A DNA stretch of 64,000 nt from Mucilaginibacter terrenus (GTDB lineage Bacteria > Bacteroidota > Bacteroidia > Sphingobacteriales > Sphingobacteriaceae). A program made the position numbers and the translations under genes. Below are positions 2,095-12,368 of the stretch, one piece after another (position 1 is the stretch's first letter; each line of letters starts with the position of its first letter). The notes below the pieces were generated by a model that saw only the letters and a list, made by a program, of their open reading frames with translations, was not told the DNA's origin and did no database searches. Location: contig NZ_QWDE01000001.1 of NCBI RefSeq assembly GCF_003432065.1, positions 620,001 to 684,000 of the forward strand, in the 5' to 3' direction.

Positions 2095-3489
2095 ATGAGT
2101 AAAGTATTTACCATTGCAGAAGGATTAGAAAATTTAGGCGCTTTGCGTACCGGCGGGCAAGGCTCGGTATATAAAGGAAAGCGGACAGGTACCATCTATT
2201 CCGCCGTAAAACTCATACCGACACCAATCCTTAACGAAAGCGGCGATGATAAAAATTACCGAAACTTCTTAAATGAAGTAGCTAAACTGCAAAAGGTAAA
2301 CGAAATACCTAATCCGAACATTGTAAAAATACTCAGCTCAGGTGTAACAGATACCGGCTCGTTTCCTTTCATAGAGATGGAATACATTGAGGGGCCTGAT
2401 CTAAGTGAATTGCTGCAGCCGCCGCATGATAAGATATTTACGCTGAAAGAGCTAATTAAAGTTGCTGATCAGCTAGCTTGCGCACTTGCGCACTGCCATA
2501 AGGTTGGGGTAAAGCACGGCGATATCAAGAGCAATAATGTAAAATACAACATCCATACAGGCAATTACGTGTTGCTCGACTTTGGCTTGGCTATCATGAG
2601 CGAAGAACAACGCCGCAGCAGCATACGTCATGCCGGCGCGGTTGAATTTATGGCGCCGGAGCAGCATGAAGGAAAAATGCTGCTGCAGACAGATGTTTAC
2701 AGTTACGGTGTTATCCTTTACGAATTGCTTGCGGGTCAGGTACCTTTCCCACTGTCTGGGAACGGCGATACCGGGCGGAACTCTGTTATGGTGAACCATA
2801 TGGAAACCGATATACCGGATCCGATACGCTCCCGTAAGTTAAATATGCCTGAGGAGTGGGACGAAAAGAAGATCCGACAGGAAATGCAGGTTCCTGCGTG
2901 GTTGCTTAACCTCATCAATAAATGCCTTCAAAAGAATCCCGATGACCGTTTTAAAGATGGTTCTGAACTGCATGATGCAATAGTTGCAGGTAGCTTATCA
3001 TCTACAAACGGGAATGTTGCGGTCGGAGCTGCTACTGCTACAGAGAGCGTTGCAGCGCTCAAAGCAGATAATCAAAAGCTACAGCAACAATTGCTTGAAC
3101 TTCAAAACGCGCAACCCGTAATAGATCAGGAACTGGCAGAGCCCTTGGACAACTCTAAGATGGTTGTTTCTAAACTCGGCTTCAACGCACTGGTGGCATT
3201 GCTGGTGCTGTTTGTACTCTTCTCTGTGTATTCGGTATTCATTAAAAAGGATGCACGACTTCCTAACAACACCACTACTCAAGACTCTGTTCAAACTAAT
3301 TCTGATACCACGTTGATGAATAATCCGCAATACGAAGACTCTGCACGATTGGAGACAGAACGGAAGCGTATTTTAAAATTGCGTCGTGATTCCATCAAGC
3401 ATAGAAGAGATAGTATTATTAAGGCTTCTATAGACAGCGTTGCTGTGGACAGCAGCAGGGCAGATACATCTAACGATTCGCCGTTTTAA
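2095..3489 (+). CDS. Membrane-anchored Ser/Thr protein kinase (copy 1)
   Basis: A 464-residue Hanks-type kinase. Its glycine loop is GGQGSV (20-25), the ATP-binding Lys is K39 in SAVKLI, the catalytic loop HGDIKSNN has D143, the DFG Asp is D162 and APE is at 187-189. The catalytic motif is HGD instead of HRD, so it is a non-RD kinase whose activation may not need activation-loop phosphorylation. A coiled coil (about 325-345) and a single membrane segment (about 360-382) follow, then a short hydrophilic, Ser/Thr-rich tail. No PASTA repeats are present, unlike PknB. It opens a co-directional cluster with FHA, PP2C and FtsW-PBP genes, so cell-wall proteins are likely substrates (inference). Its paralogue closes the cluster at 11001-12368. 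Confidence 0.93.
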   Translation: MSKVFTIAEGLENLGALRTGGQGSVYKGKRTGTIYSAVKLIPTPILNESGDDKNYRNFLNEVAKLQKVNEIPNPNIVKILSSGVTDTGSFPFIEMEYIEGPDLSELLQPPHDKIFTLKELIKVADQLACALAHCHKVGVKHGDIKSNNVKYNIHTGNYVLLDFGLAIMSEEQRRSSIRHAGAVEFMAPEQHEGKMLLQTDVYSYGVILYELLAGQVPFPLSGNGDTGRNSVMVNHMETDIPDPIRSRKLNMPEEWDEKKIRQEMQVPAWLLNLINKCLQKNPDDRFKDGSELHDAIVAGSLSSTNGNVAVGAATATESVAALKADNQKLQQQLLELQNAQPVIDQELAEPLDNSKMVVSKLGFNALVALLVLFVLFSVYSVFIKKDARLPNNTTTQDSVQTNSDTTLMNNPQYEDSARLETERKRILKLRRDSIKHRRDSIIKASIDSVAVDSSRADTSNDSPF

Positions 3490-3575: not shown

Positions 3576-4535
3576 ATGGAAACCAAACCTAGTTTTTGGC
3601 AGCGCATTGGTATACAAGATTGGTTCTTGACCACAGAAAGTACCGGTGTTAACGGTAAAATACCGCCACTCACGCCTGAAAGCGTTTATAGTTATATTGT
3701 AGACCAGTTTCGTGAATCTATTAAGGACCTCTCGTTTGCAGGCCGGGTAGTTTTTTATCACGAATTCATCATCAGTTTTAATGCTGATGATTACCGTGAG
3801 TTTATCGAGAACAAGCAGGGTTTGTTTGGCTTAATAGTACAGGAGACTGTTAAAAAGTTTTATGAAATACTTAAGGAATATCGGCAGGAGGGTAAACGCG
3901 TAGAACCATCCGGATCCAAATGGGTGTTCAGGCTGGTATCGCATCCGGATTATCAACGCGGTGATAAAGGCTTTATCGGGAAGTTACTTCCGGATAACAG
4001 TCAACCCACCAAAAAGGAAGAGAACTTAAGGGTAACCTTTATTCCGCGTCAGACAGGTATTGCGCAGACATTCGATGTGAATCAGGATATTCTTAAAGGC
4101 TTTATCTATTACAGCGAAGGTTACTTTGAAATACCTTACCAGGAAGATCTGGAGTACAGCGAAAAGGAGGCGATTCAAAAGGAAAGCAAGAGCGTTGCCC
4201 GTTTCGAAACCATTATTCCCGATAAGCAGTTTGCCGGTAAAAAGGTAGAGTTTCTAATGAAGGATGACGATGTAATTGTCTCCGGGAACGACGAAGAACG
4301 CGATGAGCCAAATATATTCAAGATACCTTCGGAGTGGGTTAACACGCCGCATTTGCAGGTGCGCTTTAATAAGGCGGATGGTAAATTCTACCTGGCATCA
4401 TATGGCGAAATGACAACGCTCAACGAAATGGCGGTACCTACCAGCGATATTAATGCACCCAAGTGGGTAGAGCTGCCCGTAAATTCGCGTATGTTGTTAA
4501 ACGGTATAGTGGGCCTTAATCTGTTTAAGTCTTAA
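3576..4535 (+). CDS. FhaA-like protein with degenerate FHA-type C-terminus
   Basis: 319 residues, no signal peptide or membrane segment, hence cytoplasmic. Residues about 55-135 (AGRVVFYHEFIISFNADDY..., then an alpha-helical stretch and a beta strand) resemble the N-terminal DUF3662-type domain of actinobacterial FhaA. The last 70 residues (TPHLQVRF...FYLASYG...WVELPVNSRMLLNG) have the strand pattern of an FHA domain but lack the GR and SRxH phosphothreonine-binding residues. It probably acts as a scaffold between kinase, phosphatase and FtsW-PBP. The family assignment rests on pattern resemblance only; position inside the kinase cluster supports it. Confidence 0.6.
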   Translation: METKPSFWQRIGIQDWFLTTESTGVNGKIPPLTPESVYSYIVDQFRESIKDLSFAGRVVFYHEFIISFNADDYREFIENKQGLFGLIVQETVKKFYEILKEYRQEGKRVEPSGSKWVFRLVSHPDYQRGDKGFIGKLLPDNSQPTKKEENLRVTFIPRQTGIAQTFDVNQDILKGFIYYSEGYFEIPYQEDLEYSEKEAIQKESKSVARFETIIPDKQFAGKKVEFLMKDDDVIVSGNDEERDEPNIFKIPSEWVNTPHLQVRFNKADGKFYLASYGEMTTLNEMAVPTSDINAPKWVELPVNSRMLLNGIVGLNLFKS

Positions 4536-4539
4536 GCGT

Positions 4540-4638
4540 ATGTCGCAAATATTATCAATAAGCTTGTTAGTAATGGTGGTTTGCCTGTTGGCAACGCACT
4601 TTGTAGATATTAAAAACTCCGGCAAACACAATGGCTGA
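4540..4638 (+). CDS. Small single-span membrane peptide (32 aa)
   Basis: A 32-codon ORF opens 4 bp after the FhaA-like stop codon and its TGA (4636-4638) overlaps the ATG of the phosphatase gene (4631). The product starts MSQILSISLLVMVVCLLATHF, one continuous hydrophobic helix, followed by a short basic tail (IKNSGKHNG). Exact fit between two genes and overlap with the next start suggest translational coupling. The family is unknown, and without conservation data it could be a chance ORF. Confidence 0.4.
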   Translation: MSQILSISLLVMVVCLLATHFVDIKNSGKHNG

Positions 4639-6100
4639 AAACTTTTTTGGACTAACAGACACCGGTAAGGTGCGCAGCAATAACGAGGATACCTTTATTG
4701 CTACGCGGCTGGACAAAAGCCTTGTACTGGCAAGTGTTATAGACGGTGTTGGGGGGTATAATGGCGGCGAAGTAGCAGCAGCTATTGCACGCGAGCAGAT
4801 ACTGGATCACCTGAGCGAAACCAAAGAGAACTTTGTATTTGCAATGATAGAGGCTATACGCAAAGCGAATAGTGCCATTACTGCTAAAAAACAAGAAGTT
4901 AAAGAGTTGGACAGCATGGCTTGTGTAGCTACTCTGGCTGTTACCGACATCCCTAATAACTTGTTCTACTATGCGCATGTTGGCGATACACGCTTATACC
5001 TGCTGCGCGATGGCTCATTGGTTAAGATATCCAAAGATCATTCTTTCGTAGGCTTTCTTGAAGACTCTGGGCGCATAAGCGAGCGCGAAGCCATGGACCA
5101 CCCTAAACGTAATGAGATCAACAAAGCGCTGGGTTTTTCCAGCCAGATAGATGCTGACGATAGTTTTATTGAAACAGGTCAATCGCCGTTTCTGCCCGGA
5201 GATATGCTGCTGCTGTGCAGCGATGGGCTCACCGATATGGTGGATAAGGGAGAGATCACCAATATTATTACACAGCCAATTCCCTTAGCTGAAAAGGCTG
5301 GTAAGCTTATACAGGCCGCCAATAAAAATGGTGGTCACGATAACATAACTGTAGTGCTGGTGCAGAACGACAAGAAGCCTCAGCCGCAAGCAGCAACAAT
5401 ACCAGTTGTAGAGCTTAAGGAAAATACCGAACCGCCGCCAGAGGTAAAGAAAGAATATCAAAATGTAACCTCGGCGATTAAAGAAAAGCAACAAAAACCA
5501 ATGCCTGAAAAAAAAAGCAATTTGTACGCTGTGATCATCAGCATCTTGTGCCTGTTCTTTATAGGTGCTTCTGTTTATTACTACCTGCAATGGCAAAAGG
5601 AAATTAACAAAAGTGTAACCAAACCGGAGGCTATTGCCGTAACAAAGGAAAAGTCGCCACGCAATTCTGAAGAGATCAAACTGCAAAATGCCATTAACAT
5701 GATGAAGACAGATACGCTTGTATTGTCCGACACGTCGTTCAAACAGCCCTTGATCATCAGCGATACGCTGGATATTAGCCGCGCTAAGTTTTTCATTCGT
5801 GTAAAAGGTAATCTAGCCATACAGGCAGACACTGCTTATAATGCGCCTGCATTTATACTCAAAAGTGGCGTTAGGGCTGCTGGCTTTACCAACCTAAAGT
5901 TAAAGGGTTTTACGGCAGGTATAGCGTCCGGCAATATACCGTTGTACCTGCGTAATGTGGAGTTTAGCGACTGCAAAACACCAGTACAAAAGAATTATGG
6001 ATTACCAAGCGGCAGAGCCGTAACGGAAATATTCCCGGCAGCGGCACTTTATGCCGATTCTGTTAATAAAACTGTTAAGCCCCAAAATGGAAGCAGATAA
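4631..6100 (+). CDS. PP2C-family Ser/Thr phosphatase with membrane anchor
   Basis: 489 residues. The N-terminal 245 residues form a PP2C/Stp-type phosphatase: SNNEDTF, VIDGVGGYNGGE (metal-binding Asp and Gly), AHVGDTRLYLLRDG, LLLCSDGLTDMV and GGHDNITVVLV are all present, so the metal centre looks intact. A Pro/Lys-rich linker leads to a membrane segment at about 297-318, followed by a C-terminal extracytoplasmic domain (about 330-489) with a beta-helix-like sequence that I do not recognise. It should reverse phosphorylation by the two flanking kinases, as PstP does in actinobacteria. Its 3' end overlaps the FtsW-PBP gene by 14 bp, indicating coupled expression. Confidence 0.9.
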   Translation: MAENFFGLTDTGKVRSNNEDTFIATRLDKSLVLASVIDGVGGYNGGEVAAAIAREQILDHLSETKENFVFAMIEAIRKANSAITAKKQEVKELDSMACVATLAVTDIPNNLFYYAHVGDTRLYLLRDGSLVKISKDHSFVGFLEDSGRISEREAMDHPKRNEINKALGFSSQIDADDSFIETGQSPFLPGDMLLLCSDGLTDMVDKGEITNIITQPIPLAEKAGKLIQAANKNGGHDNITVVLVQNDKKPQPQAATIPVVELKENTEPPPEVKKEYQNVTSAIKEKQQKPMPEKKSNLYAVIISILCLFFIGASVYYYLQWQKEINKSVTKPEAIAVTKEKSPRNSEEIKLQNAINMMKTDTLVLSDTSFKQPLIISDTLDISRAKFFIRVKGNLAIQADTAYNAPAFILKSGVRAAGFTNLKLKGFTAGIASGNIPLYLRNVEFSDCKTPVQKNYGLPSGRAVTEIFPAAALYADSVNKTVKPQNGSR

Positions 6101-9100
6101 GGCGCAAAGACCCGGCAGAGGTAAAGAAAGGATTTTCCTCCTGCTCATTACGGTCCTCTTTTCTTTGTTGTTCTACAGGTTGTACGAAGTTGTGCAGCTT
6201 CGCTTTGCTGATGTTGATAAACGCCTGGCGGATGGCACAATGGTGAACCTTAATGACAAAGATCCCGCACAGGGCATACATCAGCTGCTTACCAAGGGGT
6301 ATTACTTTGAAGACAAACGCGATATAGAACTAATTACCAAAACGGTTGGCGATAACATTGGTGTAGGCCAAAAGATTGATAATGTTGGTGAACTAAATAA
6401 GCGTAAGTACTACGTAGTTGCCGATGATGCTTTTGCGAAAGGTGGCGAGTCGTTCAAAAAACGTGTAGAAGCGTCGCGATCTTTACTGGGCTATACCGGT
6501 GCGGACTCGTTGCTTTTTGTGAGTGAAAAACAATCGCCAATGAAACTGCCGCAGGTTACAGATCTGGCTATGGGCAAGTATGGCATCAGCGGCAGCATTT
6601 CACATGACGAAGAGCTGGTGCCGGGTGTATTGGTGAGGCTACAAATGATACTACCGCAAGACAGCCTGTTTAGTGATGAACTCACAGAGGATACAAAGCC
6701 GCGGACAGAACAGGGAGAAGGATTCAAAAAGGTACTTTATCCGGATAGTGCAGGTAAGTTAAAACTTCAGGAGCTTACCGCTTATGCACGCACGGATGGA
6801 TCCGGTAACTATCACTTCAAAGGCTTACCAGATGGTAAAGCATTCAAAATATTGCCTCTACAGCCGGGCTTCCAGTTCGGAACATCACAGGGCACTGAAA
6901 ACCTGGACGAAGATGCTGTATTTAGTTTTCGCCAGGCGCCCCACACCATAAAACTATTTTCTACAAGAGATTTTAATATCCTGAAAAAGGAGAAGTCGTT
7001 GATCATACGCACACCTGCGGAATTCAACCACTGGTTCTGGATCATAGCGGCAACTTTCATCGGTGCTTACCTGTTGATGCACATCATACTCTCGCTGTTC
7101 TTCAGTGATAGCGACCAGTTGATTTTGCCTGTAGTAATGATCCTGACAGGTCTATCTTTCCTGACACTGCTTAGCCTGCAGGATCCTTTACGTGACCGGT
7201 TCCTGGCAAAAGACTCACTGGTGTATTTAGGCATTGGGATGGTAGCATTCCTGGTGATGCTTGTCTTTAAGATGCGCCGCTTCACTGCCGATTCTAATCT
7301 GTACCGTTTGTTAGTTTTTAAAAACAACCAAAAGGCCTCAAACGGCTGGCCGTGGGTAGTGATAGCAGCAGGGTTATTAGCTATGACCATAAAGTTTGGT
7401 ACCGGTCCGGAAGGCAGCGGCGTAAAGGTGAACTTGTTTGGCTTTCAGCCGAGCGAGATTGTTAAATACCTTATCATTCTTTTTCTTGCCGGCTTCTTTG
7501 CAGCTAATGAAAAATTAATAAGCGAATACACCAGTTGGACAAAGCGTTGGTCTTTCTTTGCTTTTGCGCTTATAGCAATACTCGTCACGCTGATGCTATT
7601 TTTACTGCTGGGAGACCTTGGACCGGCCATGGTGGTGTGTTTTACCTTCATTGCCTTATTCTCGTTCTCCCGTGGCGACTTCATGTTTATGGCGATATCA
7701 GTAGTTATATATGTTATCGCCTCCTGGACCTTAAAGAACGTGTGGCTTTCAGCTGCGGTAACTGCCGGTATAGTGGCATTGCTCATGTTCTTCCAGCGTC
7801 GTAAGCTCAGTGAATCTGCCGTTATGGTACTCGTGATCATGGCTGCATTCCTTACCATTGACCAGATCCCGTATTTAGGTAAACTGTTCCCAGGCCCGGT
7901 ACAACGTTTGGTAGATCGCAAGGCCATCTGGATGGATCCATGGAACAATGAAGTTTACGGCGGCGACCAGGTAGCAAATGGCCTTTGGGCAATGTCAAGT
8001 GGTGGCGTATCCGGGCAGGGTGTAGGAGAGGGTTTTGCTAAAACCATCCCCGAAGCTCATACAGATATGATTCTCCCGTCAATGGGTGAAGAATTTGGCT
8101 GGACAGGGATCGTTTGTATTTTCATCCTGTTCCTCCTTTACCTGCACCGGTCAATTATAATAGGTCGGCGAACGGGTACACCGTTCCTGTTTTATTTGTG
8201 TGCGGGTGTAGGTATATCCACATTCGTCCAGTTCCTGCTTATTGCAGGTGGTTCTACCGGTGCATTGCCGCTTTCGGGCGTGTCGCTGCCGTTTCAAAGC
8301 TATGGCGGGTCATCATTGGTGGCCAACTTACTTGCTTCTGGCTTTTTAATGTCGGCATCAAGGGTAAAAGGTACAGCTATACAAATGAAGTACATCTCGG
8401 GCCAGCAGGACAAGAACCTGGTGCCTGCGCTTATAGCAGCGGTAATGGGCGTTGCCTTACTTACAGTGAGTGTTTCCCGTTATTTGTTCAATAATAAAAA
8501 GTGGGTGGTACAGCCTGCGCTAGTTGCAGATAAAGGCGGTGCGCGCATGTTTAGCTATAACCCCCGTATTGCTATATTGATGAACCGGCTGCAAGCCGGC
8601 AACCTTTATGACCGGGATGGGGTATTGCTGGCTACCAGCAAGCCGGACCTGGTGAAAAAGCAGATGGGCAAGCTGGCACAATCCGGAGCGGGTAACTATA
8701 ATATCGACTCAGCTATGCACAAACGGCTCGATCGTTATTATCCGTTTGCGGAGCAGATGTTCTTTTGGGTAGGTGATAACAATACCGGCGTTTTTAACGG
8801 CAGCCCTAACGGATACTTTGCCGAGTACGAACACGCAGCGGAATTAAGGGGATTTAAACTGCCGACCACCAACTTTAATGTTACAGCTAACCGCTACCGG
8901 GAGGACAGGTTCCTGGCGCGTGGTGTAAAAGAGATGACCGTCGTGCGGAAAGATTACAGTGCATTGTCTCCGCTGCTGCTTGCGGGTATAAACAGCACGG
9001 CAGTAGACTCATTCAAGAACCGTAATCGCGATGTCAGGCTTACATTGGATGCAGGTCTGCAAACCAACATTCAGCGTTCAATGGTCACCGATACCTCACT

Positions 9101-10157
9101 GCTTGATAACCGCGTATCAGTAGTGGTAATGGAATCTAACACAGGCGACGTGCTCGCATCATCAGTTTATCCGTTGCCTCCTGTAAGAGATTGGGAAAAG
9201 CTAACAATGAGTAATGCCGACCAGAACCAATTAGCCGGATGGATGACCACAAGCGACCTGGGCTTTACACTGGCAACGCAGCCTGGCTCAACCGCGAAGC
9301 TTGCTACATCCTTAGCATCCTTTAATAAGTTAGGCTTGGCAGCGGCCAATAAAACGTATCCCGTTGCCTCTTATGAACGCATCCGTACCAAAGGGCTGGA
9401 GCCTGATGAAACCGGTATGATAACGCTGGAGCGTGCAGTAGTAAAGTCTAACAACGTATACTTCATAAAACTAGCCAACGATCAGCACTTGCAGGAAGAT
9501 ATGGCTACGGTTTATCTTAAAACCGGCATGTTCCTGCATGGTGTGGGCGGTTACTACTACGGCCGCGAGCAGTTGAACCCTGCACAGGAAGATAAATGGC
9601 GTCAGCTTTGGCGTAAAACGGAATTTAACACCAAGCCAAGATATGACCCTAACAACATCCGGCGTACACGGGCCAAAGGCATATCGGGTATGTCGTGGGG
9701 ACAGGGCGAGTTAATCGCTACTCCCGCGGCCGTGGCACGTATGGCTGCAGGCATAGCAAACAACGGAACTATGCCTAATAACCGTTACGTGCTTAAGTTT
9801 AGTGATTCTGCAACTTCAGTTAAGCCGGGAGTAAAACTGGTAAATGATCCAAAATACGCTCAATTGATGCGTAAGTACATGATAGAGCAAAGCGAGGCCA
9901 AAACATATACCCTCGGGATCCCTGTAGCCGGTAAAACCGGTACACCGGAACGTATCTGGAAAGGGCAGCAGATAAACGATGGCTGGTATGTATTTTTCGC
10001 GCCCAAGCAAAAAGGCCCGGGTTATATTGTAACGTGCGTACGTGTAGAAGCCACAAAGGGCTCGTCAGACGCGGTTAAGCTAGCCGGTAAGCACGTAATA
10101 CCATTTTTGCTCAAAAAGGGCTATATTAAAGGGATTGCACAGCAAACAATTGAATAA
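6087..10157 (+). CDS. FtsW/RodA glycosyltransferase fused to class B penicillin-binding protein
   Basis: A 1356-residue fusion. Order: one N-terminal membrane helix (about 15-33); an unfamiliar domain; a carboxypeptidase-regulatory-like beta domain (about 160-265, with TDGSGNYHFKGLPDG); a SEDS polymerase with about ten helices (about 314-800) containing LLLGDLGPAMV, EAHTDMILPSMGEEFGW (conserved Asp) and LPFQSYGGSS; then a class B PBP (NLYDRDGVLLA onward) with catalytic STAK at Ser1068, SNN at 1121 and KTGT at 1283. Both glycan polymerisation and transpeptidation should reside in one chain. The start at 6087 gives the shorter overlap with the phosphatase gene; an in-frame ATG at 6051 would add 12 residues. 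FtsW or RodA is usually encoded separately from its PBP partner. Confidence 0.93.
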   Translation: MEADKAQRPGRGKERIFLLLITVLFSLLFYRLYEVVQLRFADVDKRLADGTMVNLNDKDPAQGIHQLLTKGYYFEDKRDIELITKTVGDNIGVGQKIDNVGELNKRKYYVVADDAFAKGGESFKKRVEASRSLLGYTGADSLLFVSEKQSPMKLPQVTDLAMGKYGISGSISHDEELVPGVLVRLQMILPQDSLFSDELTEDTKPRTEQGEGFKKVLYPDSAGKLKLQELTAYARTDGSGNYHFKGLPDGKAFKILPLQPGFQFGTSQGTENLDEDAVFSFRQAPHTIKLFSTRDFNILKKEKSLIIRTPAEFNHWFWIIAATFIGAYLLMHIILSLFFSDSDQLILPVVMILTGLSFLTLLSLQDPLRDRFLAKDSLVYLGIGMVAFLVMLVFKMRRFTADSNLYRLLVFKNNQKASNGWPWVVIAAGLLAMTIKFGTGPEGSGVKVNLFGFQPSEIVKYLIILFLAGFFAANEKLISEYTSWTKRWSFFAFALIAILVTLMLFLLLGDLGPAMVVCFTFIALFSFSRGDFMFMAISVVIYVIASWTLKNVWLSAAVTAGIVALLMFFQRRKLSESAVMVLVIMAAFLTIDQIPYLGKLFPGPVQRLVDRKAIWMDPWNNEVYGGDQVANGLWAMSSGGVSGQGVGEGFAKTIPEAHTDMILPSMGEEFGWTGIVCIFILFLLYLHRSIIIGRRTGTPFLFYLCAGVGISTFVQFLLIAGGSTGALPLSGVSLPFQSYGGSSLVANLLASGFLMSASRVKGTAIQMKYISGQQDKNLVPALIAAVMGVALLTVSVSRYLFNNKKWVVQPALVADKGGARMFSYNPRIAILMNRLQAGNLYDRDGVLLATSKPDLVKKQMGKLAQSGAGNYNIDSAMHKRLDRYYPFAEQMFFWVGDNNTGVFNGSPNGYFAEYEHAAELRGFKLPTTNFNVTANRYREDRFLARGVKEMTVVRKDYSALSPLLLAGINSTAVDSFKNRNRDVRLTLDAGLQTNIQRSMVTDTSLLDNRVSVVVMESNTGDVLASSVYPLPPVRDWEKLTMSNADQNQLAGWMTTSDLGFTLATQPGSTAKLATSLASFNKLGLAAANKTYPVASYERIRTKGLEPDETGMITLERAVVKSNNVYFIKLANDQHLQEDMATVYLKTGMFLHGVGGYYYGREQLNPAQEDKWRQLWRKTEFNTKPRYDPNNIRRTRAKGISGMSWGQGELIATPAAVARMAAGIANNGTMPNNRYVLKFSDSATSVKPGVKLVNDPKYAQLMRKYMIEQSEAKTYTLGIPVAGKTGTPERIWKGQQINDGWYVFFAPKQKGPGYIVTCVRVEATKGSSDAVKLAGKHVIPFLLKKGYIKGIAQQTIE

Positions 10158-10212: not shown

Positions 10213-11004
10213 ATGATATTTAATTTGTTCGGTGGAAGCGAAAAGGACAGGCCCGAAGACGTAAAGGGCGTACGCCACACGCTGTTACAGTTTATAAAGC
10301 AGGAACTTCAGAAAGCGGAAGGTGGTGAAGGCTCAAACATTAAAGGCTTAAGCCTTTACATTAACTGTAGTGAGGCCGACCGGCACATGTACGAGGCCGC
10401 GGTTTACGCGGAGACGCCCGATCTTTTTAGGGACGAGATACAAAAGATAGCAGACGACTATGACCTCGGTTTGCCGGAACGCTGGTCGCTGGACATATTT
10501 TTTGATGACGACAAACCCGAAGAAGCAGTACAGGCCCTTAACGTTGATGCCGCGTTTTTTATTAAGACCGGTAAACACTTTATCCAGCAAAAGGCAACAG
10601 GCTATATAAGGGTATTAAATGGCGAGACCGAGCAGGCTGAATACGAGATACAATCCGGCGGCGATAAGGTTAATATAGGCCGCGATAAACGGGCCCAGGC
10701 TGATGATGGATTTTTCCGTACCAACCAAATAGCATTTCCATCAGACAGCGGTAACGCAGCAAACAAATATATAAGCCGCCAGCATGCGCACATCGAATGG
10801 AGTGTGGATACCCAGCGCTTTATGCTGTTTGCCGATGATGGCGGCATTCCTCCAAGGAATAAGATCAAGATACGTGCTGATAAAAGCGATAACGTTATAA
10901 AACTGCATTCTACAACCATCGGTCACCCGCTTGCCGAAGGTGATCAGGTTATACTTGGCGAATCTGCTGTACTGGAGTTCAGCTATCAACCCATGAGTAA
11001 ATGA
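10213..11004 (+). CDS. FHA-domain phosphothreonine-binding protein
   Basis: 263 residues, cytoplasmic. Residues 1-125 are an unfamiliar alpha/beta domain. The C-terminal FHA domain (about 145-258) keeps the phosphothreonine-binding signature: VNIGRDKRA (Gly-Arg), YISRQHAHIEW (Ser-Arg-x-His) and a late strand EGDQVILG. It probably binds a phosphorylated partner in the cluster, such as the kinase juxtamembrane region or the FtsW-PBP protein. Its stop overlaps the start of the second kinase (ATGA), so the two are translationally coupled. It corresponds in position and content to FhaB of the actinobacterial locus; that parallel is inferred. Confidence 0.9.
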   Translation: MIFNLFGGSEKDRPEDVKGVRHTLLQFIKQELQKAEGGEGSNIKGLSLYINCSEADRHMYEAAVYAETPDLFRDEIQKIADDYDLGLPERWSLDIFFDDDKPEEAVQALNVDAAFFIKTGKHFIQQKATGYIRVLNGETEQAEYEIQSGGDKVNIGRDKRAQADDGFFRTNQIAFPSDSGNAANKYISRQHAHIEWSVDTQRFMLFADDGGIPPRNKIKIRADKSDNVIKLHSTTIGHPLAEGDQVILGESAVLEFSYQPMSK

Positions 11005-12368
11005 GCAAGGTTTTTACAATAGCCGAAGGTTTAGAAAATTTGGGAGCACTGCGTACCGGCGGACAAGGTTCGGTATACAAGGGCCGCAGGACAGGTGTTA
11101 TCTATTCAGCTGTTAAAATGATCCCAACCCCGGTTTATTCGGAAAGCGGCGAAGATAAAAACTACCGTAACTTTCAGAACGAGGTAGCCAAGCTGCAGAA
11201 GGTTAACGAAATAACAAATCCAAACGTTGTTAAAATTTTAAGTTTTGGTGTTACCGAAAGTGGATCGTTCCCATTCATAGAAATGGAGTATATAGACGGC
11301 CCCGACCTAAGTGAATTGCTACAGCCACCACATGAGAAGATTTTCATGTTGAAGGAGCTGCTTAAAGTAGCTGATCAGCTTGCCTGCGCGCTTGCCCATT
11401 GCCATAAAGTAGGAGTAAAGCACGGCGATATAAAAAGTAATAACGTTAAGTACAATATAAACACCGGTAACTACGTACTCCTGGATTTTGGCCTAGCCAT
11501 CATGAGTGAGGAACAACGCCGCAGCAGCATTCGCAACGCTGGTGCAGTGGAGTTTATGGCACCTGAACAATCGGACGGTAAAATGCTGATGCAGACTGAT
11601 GTTTACAGCTATGGCGTAATCCTGTATGAGCTGCTTACCGGACAGGTACCTTTTCCCCTGAATACAAGTGGAGACACCGGACGGAACAACGTGATGATGG
11701 GGCACCTGGAAGGCAAGGTTCCTGATCCGCTTCCATTACGTAAAGCAGCACTACCCGGAAATTGGGGAACCGACAAACGTGAGATGGAAATGCAGGTACC
11801 TGCCTGGCTGCTGGCGCTGATTGATAAATGCCTCCAAAAAAAACCTGAGGATCGTTTTCCGGACGGTCAGGCTTTACACGACGCAATTGTTAACGGAACA
11901 TTAGCAACAGCCGGCGAACAGGTGAACATAGGAGCATCTACCTTACTAAGCGAAAACGAAAAACTGCAAACTAAACTACAGGAACGCAGCGATCCGGAGA
12001 AGGTTGGGATCCTCAGGATGGATAAGGGCGTAGTACACATGCAAAAAAGCGTGTTTGCAGGGCTTGTTTTCCTGGCGGCGTTATTTATGGTACTATTTGT
12101 CGTTTCGAAAGCCGGCAACAGCAACTCTGCACAATATGGCGCTGACGGAGCCGGCGTACCGCTTAAACCCTATAAATCCATTTTATTGTTAAAACCTTAT
12201 AACTATGATAGTTTGGTTCATACCCAGCAGTTCGCTCGTATGAAAGCAGATTCGATTGCCAAGTGGCGTGCTGCTGTATCAGCGGAAAGGTATAAATATA
12301 CTCCGCCTGTGATCTCCCAACCGGAAAAACCTAAAAAGAAACGTAAGAAGTTTTTGGGAATATTTTAG
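11001..12368 (+). CDS. Membrane-anchored Ser/Thr protein kinase (copy 2)
   Basis: 455 residues, a close paralogue of the kinase at 2095-3489. The first 28 residues are identical and the kinase domain differs at scattered positions only. GGQGSV, K39, HGD with D143, DFG D162 and APE are all kept. The tails have diverged: this copy has a short linker, a membrane segment at about 355-372, a Pro/Tyr-containing segment and a strongly basic end (KPKKKRKKF). Different tails on nearly identical catalytic domains suggest that the two differ in localisation or input, not in substrate choice. It is the last gene of the cluster. Confidence 0.93.
   Translation: MSKVFTIAEGLENLGALRTGGQGSVYKGRRTGVIYSAVKMIPTPVYSESGEDKNYRNFQNEVAKLQKVNEITNPNVVKILSFGVTESGSFPFIEMEYIDGPDLSELLQPPHEKIFMLKELLKVADQLACALAHCHKVGVKHGDIKSNNVKYNINTGNYVLLDFGLAIMSEEQRRSSIRNAGAVEFMAPEQSDGKMLMQTDVYSYGVILYELLTGQVPFPLNTSGDTGRNNVMMGHLEGKVPDPLPLRKAALPGNWGTDKREMEMQVPAWLLALIDKCLQKKPEDRFPDGQALHDAIVNGTLATAGEQVNIGASTLLSENEKLQTKLQERSDPEKVGILRMDKGVVHMQKSVFAGLVFLAALFMVLFVVSKAGNSNSAQYGADGAGVPLKPYKSILLLKPYNYDSLVHTQQFARMKADSIAKWRAAVSAERYKYTPPVISQPEKPKKKRKKFLGIF

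Follow-up and report, generated by a model that had tools for sequence, protein, structure and literature searches.

A natural SEDS-class B PBP fusion protein in a kinase-phosphatase-FHA locus of Mucilaginibacter terrenus and other Bacteroidota

A SEDS polymerase and a class B PBP in one open frame

The glycan polymerase of the SEDS family and the cross-linking transpeptidase, a class B penicillin-binding protein (PBP), are normally two proteins. We analyzed 64,000 nucleotides of the genome of Mucilaginibacter terrenus, a soil bacterium (contig NZ_QWDE01000001.1, positions 620,001 to 684,000; hereafter the window, to which coordinates refer unless a locus is named), in which a first-pass annotation, made from the sequence alone, had proposed that a single polypeptide combines both enzymes. 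The gene in question, at 6087 to 10157 on the plus strand, is a single open frame without interruption, and Pfam searches and orthologue alignment identify its product as a SEDS-class B PBP fusion protein of 1,356 amino acids (aa). Pfam detected FTSW_RODA_SPOVE (PF01098) at 162.6 bits (cut-off, 26.4) and, C-terminal to it on the same protein, the transpeptidase domain (PF00905) at 91.8 bits (cut-off, 22.1). The protein has SxxK, SxN, and KTG motifs and an N-terminal transmembrane helix for the PBP part, and no Pfam match to a GT51 domain, as expected of a class B PBP. The first ATG of the frame is at 6051, giving a frame of 1,368 aa (6051 to 10157); the ATG at 6087 is the likely start, in agreement with orthologue starts and with the first-pass annotation. 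The 5' end of the gene overlaps the tail of the preceding phosphatase gene, which stops at 6100, and a scan for promoters and terminators returned signals no more often than in shuffled sequence.

The layout of the protein follows from family-averaged hydropathy, profiles, and alignment. The N-terminal membrane anchor claimed at first pass is found at residues 16 to 34 (6132 to 6188), and is followed by a periplasmic domain of about 270 aa (residues 39 to 312; 6201 to 7022) and a second transmembrane helix (residues 317 to 335) that has no counterpart in RodA. The carboxypeptidase-regulatory-like domain that had been proposed for this region was undetectable by Pfam in the window protein itself; it is recognizable in the aligned region of a distant orthologue, L070 (PF13620; 38.9 bits, cut-off 32.3), and has been lost in one distant fusion, L073. 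The SEDS polymerase domain (residues 341 to 760; 7107 to 8366), which also matched FtsW and RodA structures in profile searches, has helices spanning residues 346 to 760, including two additional ones (552 to 570 and 579 to 597) that are missing from the most distant fusions. Its catalytic aspartate, D660 in PEAHTDM (8064 to 8066), aligns with E. coli RodA D262. A short cytoplasmic linker (residues 761 to 777) joins the SEDS domain to the membrane helix of the class B PBP (residues 778 to 796; 8418 to 8474), after which come a periplasmic pedestal and the transpeptidase domain (residues 1011 to 1328; 9117 to 10070), with STAK at 9288 to 9299 (S1068-T-A-K1071), SNN at 9447 to 9455 (S1121-N-N1123), and KTG at 9933 to 9941 (K1283-T-G-T). 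With the SEDS C terminus and the PBP N terminus both in the cytoplasm, each enzyme keeps its natural topology in the fusion.

The single frame is conserved in other Bacteroidota

A scan of genome contigs recovered 40 fusion loci from named genomes of Mucilaginibacter, Pedobacter, Daejeonella, Paraflavisolibacter, Segetibacter, and other Chitinophagaceae or Sphingobacteriaceae. Except for a small number truncated where a contig ends and one that contains masked bases, they were full-length and in one frame. In a phylum-wide sample of 395 Bacteroidota genomes, a profile search found the fusion in 15 genomes of 8 genera, with about 31 to 34% identity for those of distant families. All matches at E <= 1e-40 in this sample sit in frames of at least 1,222 aa, and no unfused member of the fusion SEDS clade was found among the 395 genomes. 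Because the same architecture recurs in 40 loci and in distant Bacteroidota, a frameshift is excluded; the first-pass annotation had named a frameshift or missed stop as the observation that would overturn it, and dozens of independently assembled genomes show the frame unbroken.

The catalytic residues are equally well kept: across 21 of 21 fusions, the most divergent with 31% identity, there is no variation at D660, S1068, K1071, S1121, N1123, K1283, or G1285 and hardly any at T1284, which upholds the SEDS core and the transpeptidase as first described. In every part of the fusion, nonsynonymous divergence (pN, 0.08 to 0.29) is far below synonymous divergence (pS, 0.58 to saturation). By this measure, purifying selection acts across the whole fusion, linker included. 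The patchy distribution would fit either old loss or transfer, the trees described below being unrooted. Second copies were also noted: in genome G131, a second, diverged fusion (L167/L168; contig 121, 5783 to 9094) with a 1,310-aa frame accompanies the standard one, and in Pedobacter panaciterrae O48 two near-identical copies of the locus (L042 and L045) lie on one contig, from recent duplication or assembly error.

The fusion coexists with canonical synthases

The same genome has separate ftsW, ftsI, rodA, and PBP2 (mrdA) genes, which the first-pass annotation had proposed to look for; a lack of separate ftsW and ftsI was its second refuting observation, and this test too is passed. A dcw cluster on one contig has the order ftsI-murE-mraY-murD-ftsW-murG-murC-ftsQ-ftsA, and a cluster of mreB, mreC, mreD, PBP2, and RodA genes lies on another; the names of genes other than those for SEDS proteins and PBPs were read from the sequences. 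Partial transpeptidase matches, together with frame length, make bifunctional PBPs probable in this genome as well. Of the fusion-bearing genomes checked (the window genome and six others), 7 of 7 had FtsW and RodA alongside the fusion. Since complete FtsW/FtsI and RodA/PBP2 sets coexist with it, the fusion is a third SEDS-class B PBP machine, and the idea that it substitutes for a lost canonical pair is ruled out. The fusion shares with the RodA-PBP2 and FtsW-FtsI complexes its two catalytic domains, topology, and catalytic residues; unlike the fusion, those complexes consist of separate polypeptides encoded in the mre and dcw clusters. It does not reach the NCBIfam equivalog cut-offs for ftsW (156.8 of 337.5 bits) or rodA (138.3 of 336.7 bits).

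A conserved kinase-phosphatase-FHA locus

The fusion gene stands in a tightly packed locus, all on the plus strand, in the order kinase, FhaA-like gene, PP2C phosphatase, fusion, FHA gene, and kinase. The first gene (2095 to 3489) encodes a Ser/Thr protein kinase, STK1 (PF00069, 126.7 bits). The second (3576 to 4535) encodes a protein with an FhaA_N-like region and a degenerate FHA domain; its assignment rests on distant orthologues and on a family profile, since orthologue L070 matches PF12401 FhaA_N at 27.6 bits (cut-off, 25) and FHA at 46.9 bits, and FHA domains of known structure match the profile in its C-terminal part. The PP2C Ser/Thr phosphatase (4631 to 6100; PF13672, 55.4 bits) is PstP-like, with a transmembrane helix and a periplasmic tail; it scores 214.6 bits against NCBIfam Stp1, below the cut-off of 230, and its PP2C motifs are intact. 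Downstream of the fusion, the FHA protein (10213 to 11004) matches PF00498 at 18.3 bits, just under the cut-off, and has the phosphothreonine-binding residues G156 R157 and S188 R189 H191; these GR and SRxH residues are invariant in 13 orthologues. Its gene overlaps by 4 bases that of the second Ser/Thr protein kinase, STK2 (11001 to 12368; PF00069, 125.7 bits). Upstream of the locus, at 10 to 765, lies a gene for what looks by eye like an adenylate/guanylate-cyclase-like protein with a response-regulator-like N terminus.

The order FhaA-like, PP2C, fusion, FHA, and kinase is retained in about 35 of the sufficiently long loci of Sphingobacteriales and Chitinophagaceae. The locus also occurs, with variable kinase positions, in distant Bacteroidota and on a Spirosoma plasmid. 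Profiles of the fusion, FHA, and FhaA-like proteins each match the identical 15 of 395 genomes and none else at the thresholds used. In one of the distant genomes, G179, the association goes further: PP2C, SEDS, and PBP are encoded in one 1,387-aa frame (L073, 7253 to 11413) in which the PP2C metal-binding motifs are intact. This triple fusion is the strongest single hint that the synthase may be under direct phospho-control.

Several variants of the locus were seen. The 137-kb plasmid unnamed7 of Spirosoma oryzicola (L078) carries the whole locus as FHA-PP2C-kinase-kinase-fusion-FHA, which suggests that the locus may move between replicons. In Paraflavisolibacter caeni, an insertion of about 4 kb separates the fusion from the FHA gene (L043, 14035 to 18274). 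The downstream FHA protein is larger in the distant loci L071 (11390 to 12802, 471 aa) and L073 (11473 to 12750, 426 aa); the L071 protein has an N-terminal Swt1-like HEPN domain (PF18731, 90 bits), and that of L073 looks alike. A reading of the locus as a defense system was rejected, because PADLOC matched just the generic kinase domain and, weakly, the PP2C; it returned no match for the fusion, FhaA-like, or FHA protein.

Relationship to the actinobacterial rodA-pbpA locus

In Actinobacteria, the pstP locus is described as a group of seven genes that serve in wall synthesis and phosphorylation, and pstP, rodA, pbpA, and a PASTA kinase gene are linked throughout the phylum (PMC6554272). We recovered such loci from Nonomuraea and Tsukamurella, with FhaA, FhaB, PP2C, RodA, PbpA, and two kinases in order, and the order FhaA, PP2C, SEDS, PBP, and Ser/Thr kinase is common to these and the fusion locus, which has an extra FHA gene between the fusion and the kinase. 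(PLSDB includes whole chromosomes filed as plasmids, among them those of Nonomuraea [11.85 Mb, L079] and Listeria [2.9 Mb, L133].)

Phylogeny points the same way for the SEDS half. In an unrooted tree of 37 SEDS sequences, including 12 fusions and the FtsW and RodA of Bacteroidota, E. coli, and Listeria, the fusions form a single clade (100/100) and share one side of a 100/99 branch with actinobacterial RodA, apart from the other FtsW and RodA proteins; the branch remains when just the shorter-branched distant fusions are kept. The approximately unbiased (AU) test rejects grouping of the fusion SEDS with Bacteroidota RodA (P = 0.003) and with Bacteroidota FtsW (P = 0.008), and by tree and test alike, descent from the RodA or FtsW of the same genome is rejected. 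In the PBP tree the fusions are likewise one clade (100/100), apart from FtsI and PBP2, and a tree that places them with Bacteroidota PBP2 is weakly rejected (P = 0.036). The first-pass view of a machine distinct from FtsW-FtsI and RodA-PBP2 thus stands insofar as both halves form separate clades; that the machine is a dedicated one is what we infer.

Gene content, gene order, and the SEDS grouping suggest that the fusion locus is related to the actinobacterial fhaA-fhaB-pstP-rodA-pbpA-pknA-pknB locus, with rodA and pbpA joined in their usual order. In the fusion locus, in contrast to the actinobacterial one, rodA and pbpA are fused and supplied with an extra N-terminal anchor and periplasmic domain, an FHA gene follows the synthase, and a tryptophan of SEDS loop 2 is missing. 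Its host is Gram negative and also retains RodA/PBP2. Actinobacterial PknB has PASTA domains, which the fusion-locus kinases lack, and for this reason we call the locus related to, rather than a member of, the actinobacterial type.

A proposed phospho-switched synthase and its alternatives

We consider it probable that the fusion is a third dedicated peptidoglycan synthase, with SEDS polymerase and class B PBP as one chain, run by a phospho-switch encoded in its own locus. Judging from the invariant residues, the SEDS part would join lipid II units with Asp660 as the base, as Asp262 does in RodA-PBP2 (PMC10449877, PMC6207328). The transpeptidase motifs and the solved RodA-PBP2 complexes suggest that the new strand would be led along the PBP part toward Ser1068 and there be cross-linked into the wall by this residue, so that the fusion would both polymerize lipid II and cross-link its own product. 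The contact between SEDS and PBP that is otherwise made by recruitment would be permanent in this single chain, since the cytoplasmic linker suits the natural topology of both partners. Engineered RodA-PBP2 and SpoVE-SpoVD fusions are active (PMC6207328, PMC10449877); they have the SEDS-linker-class B PBP order of the natural fusion and differ from it in being laboratory-made, with a short artificial linker, no N-terminal domain, and no phospho-locus. As for control, either the synthase or a helper would be phosphorylated by the kinases and, in that state, bound by the FHA and FhaA-like proteins, and the PP2C would reset the switch. Such a switch is suggested by the conservation of the locus, by the co-occurrence of its genes, by its counterpart in Actinobacteria, and by the triple fusion of PP2C, SEDS, and PBP.

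Several observations weigh against this proposal or the kinship that supports it. Pfam finds a kinase domain only, and no PASTA domain, in either kinase. The FhaA-like protein of the window has no Pfam match, and its FHA domain is degenerate. A grouping of the fusion PBP with PbpA is absent from the best tree and is not rejected (P = 0.31), none of the trees is rooted, and the fusions sit on long branches. In addition, the tryptophan corresponding to E. coli RodA W102 is found nowhere in loop 2 of 21 of 21 fusions, and for this reason the polymerase may be altered.

This last point deserves closer attention. Trp102 and Gln111 of SEDS periplasmic loop 2 have been termed invariant in all species analyzed; W102A lowers activity, and the equivalent SpoVE mutant has a severe sporulation defect (PMC10449877). 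FtsW, RodA, and actinobacterial RodA retain the tryptophan. The loop of the fusions has a conserved GxGPxGSxxxxNL motif instead; in the window protein, loop 2 comprises residues 438 to 460 (7398 to 7466; GxGPEGSGxxVNL...QPSEIVK), the exact tryptophan column being uncertain because loop lengths differ. The domain still counts as SEDS, since Pfam does not define the family by this tryptophan. One could argue, from this loss and from the long branch that separates the fusions from all other SEDS proteins, that the SEDS half, its acceptor-site loop altered, departs from a standard processive peptidoglycan polymerase and makes short strands, has a priming role, or transfers a different undecaprenyl-linked glycan, with the transpeptidase doing the rest. 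We regard this as unlikely, because the equivalents of Q111, E114, K117, D159, R210, P257, T261, and D262 are all retained, those of Q111, E114, K117, D159, R210, P257, and D262 being identical in 12 of 12 fusions compared, the fused transpeptidase is intact, and W102F retains activity in vitro (PMC10449877), so that the tryptophan itself is not strictly needed. The altered loop suggests that this SEDS subclass either handles the acceptor differently or makes another product.

The distribution of the fusion could be taken to indicate a stress or back-up synthase, called on when the canonical machines are put out of action by beta-lactams or envelope stress, in the manner of low-affinity class B PBPs: it is a third copy, it is patchy (15 of 395 genomes), one copy is on the Spirosoma plasmid, and PBP2a/MecA is the best solved-structure match for the transpeptidase part of the profile. 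However, PBP2a scores only slightly above PBP2/MrdA (100 versus 94 bits), no mecR-type inducible regulator was seen adjoining the fusion, and the kinase/PP2C/FHA context indicates growth control, leaving this explanation less probable still. That the frame results from an artefact of sequencing or assembly, or from a stop overlooked between two genes, is already refuted by the same single frame in 40 named-genome loci and distant genomes and by purifying selection on the linker; nothing was found to support it, and where some distant genomes have one stop codon within the match, the frames are still at least 1,222 aa.

Significance of the fusion family

Natural SEDS-PBP fusions as such are already known in print, from a one-sentence mention of Rhodococcus RHA1 (PMC10449877, citing McLeod 2006). 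As described in that sentence, which gives no locus context, the Rhodococcus fusion has both enzymes in one open frame, like the Bacteroidota fusion, and comes from another phylum; the likeness is one of description. A search of an open-licence library returned no description of the Bacteroidota fusion family or of its phospho-locus, and none of the triple fusion or of the absence of the tryptophan. The kinase/PP2C/FHA locus and its actinobacterial kinship also go beyond the first-pass annotation.

How transpeptidase partners switch on SEDS polymerases is an open question for which structural work has used engineered fusions. The natural fusion therefore puts a single-gene synthase of fixed 1:1 stoichiometry on hand for structural and single-molecule work. 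The triple fusion of PP2C, SEDS, and PBP argues strongly that the phosphatase encoded in such loci acts at the synthase; in Actinobacteria, this link has so far been deduced from linked genes, their co-transcription, and in vitro assays. The absence of the tryptophan from every fusion provides a natural experiment on the loop residues required for SEDS catalysis. More tentatively, and with rather less than even confidence, we suggest that these proteins may represent a SEDS subclass that is permanently coupled to its transpeptidase, directly phospho-switched, and able to polymerize without the loop tryptophan, and that would serve as a third wall-growth machine of Bacteroidota beside the divisome and the elongasome.

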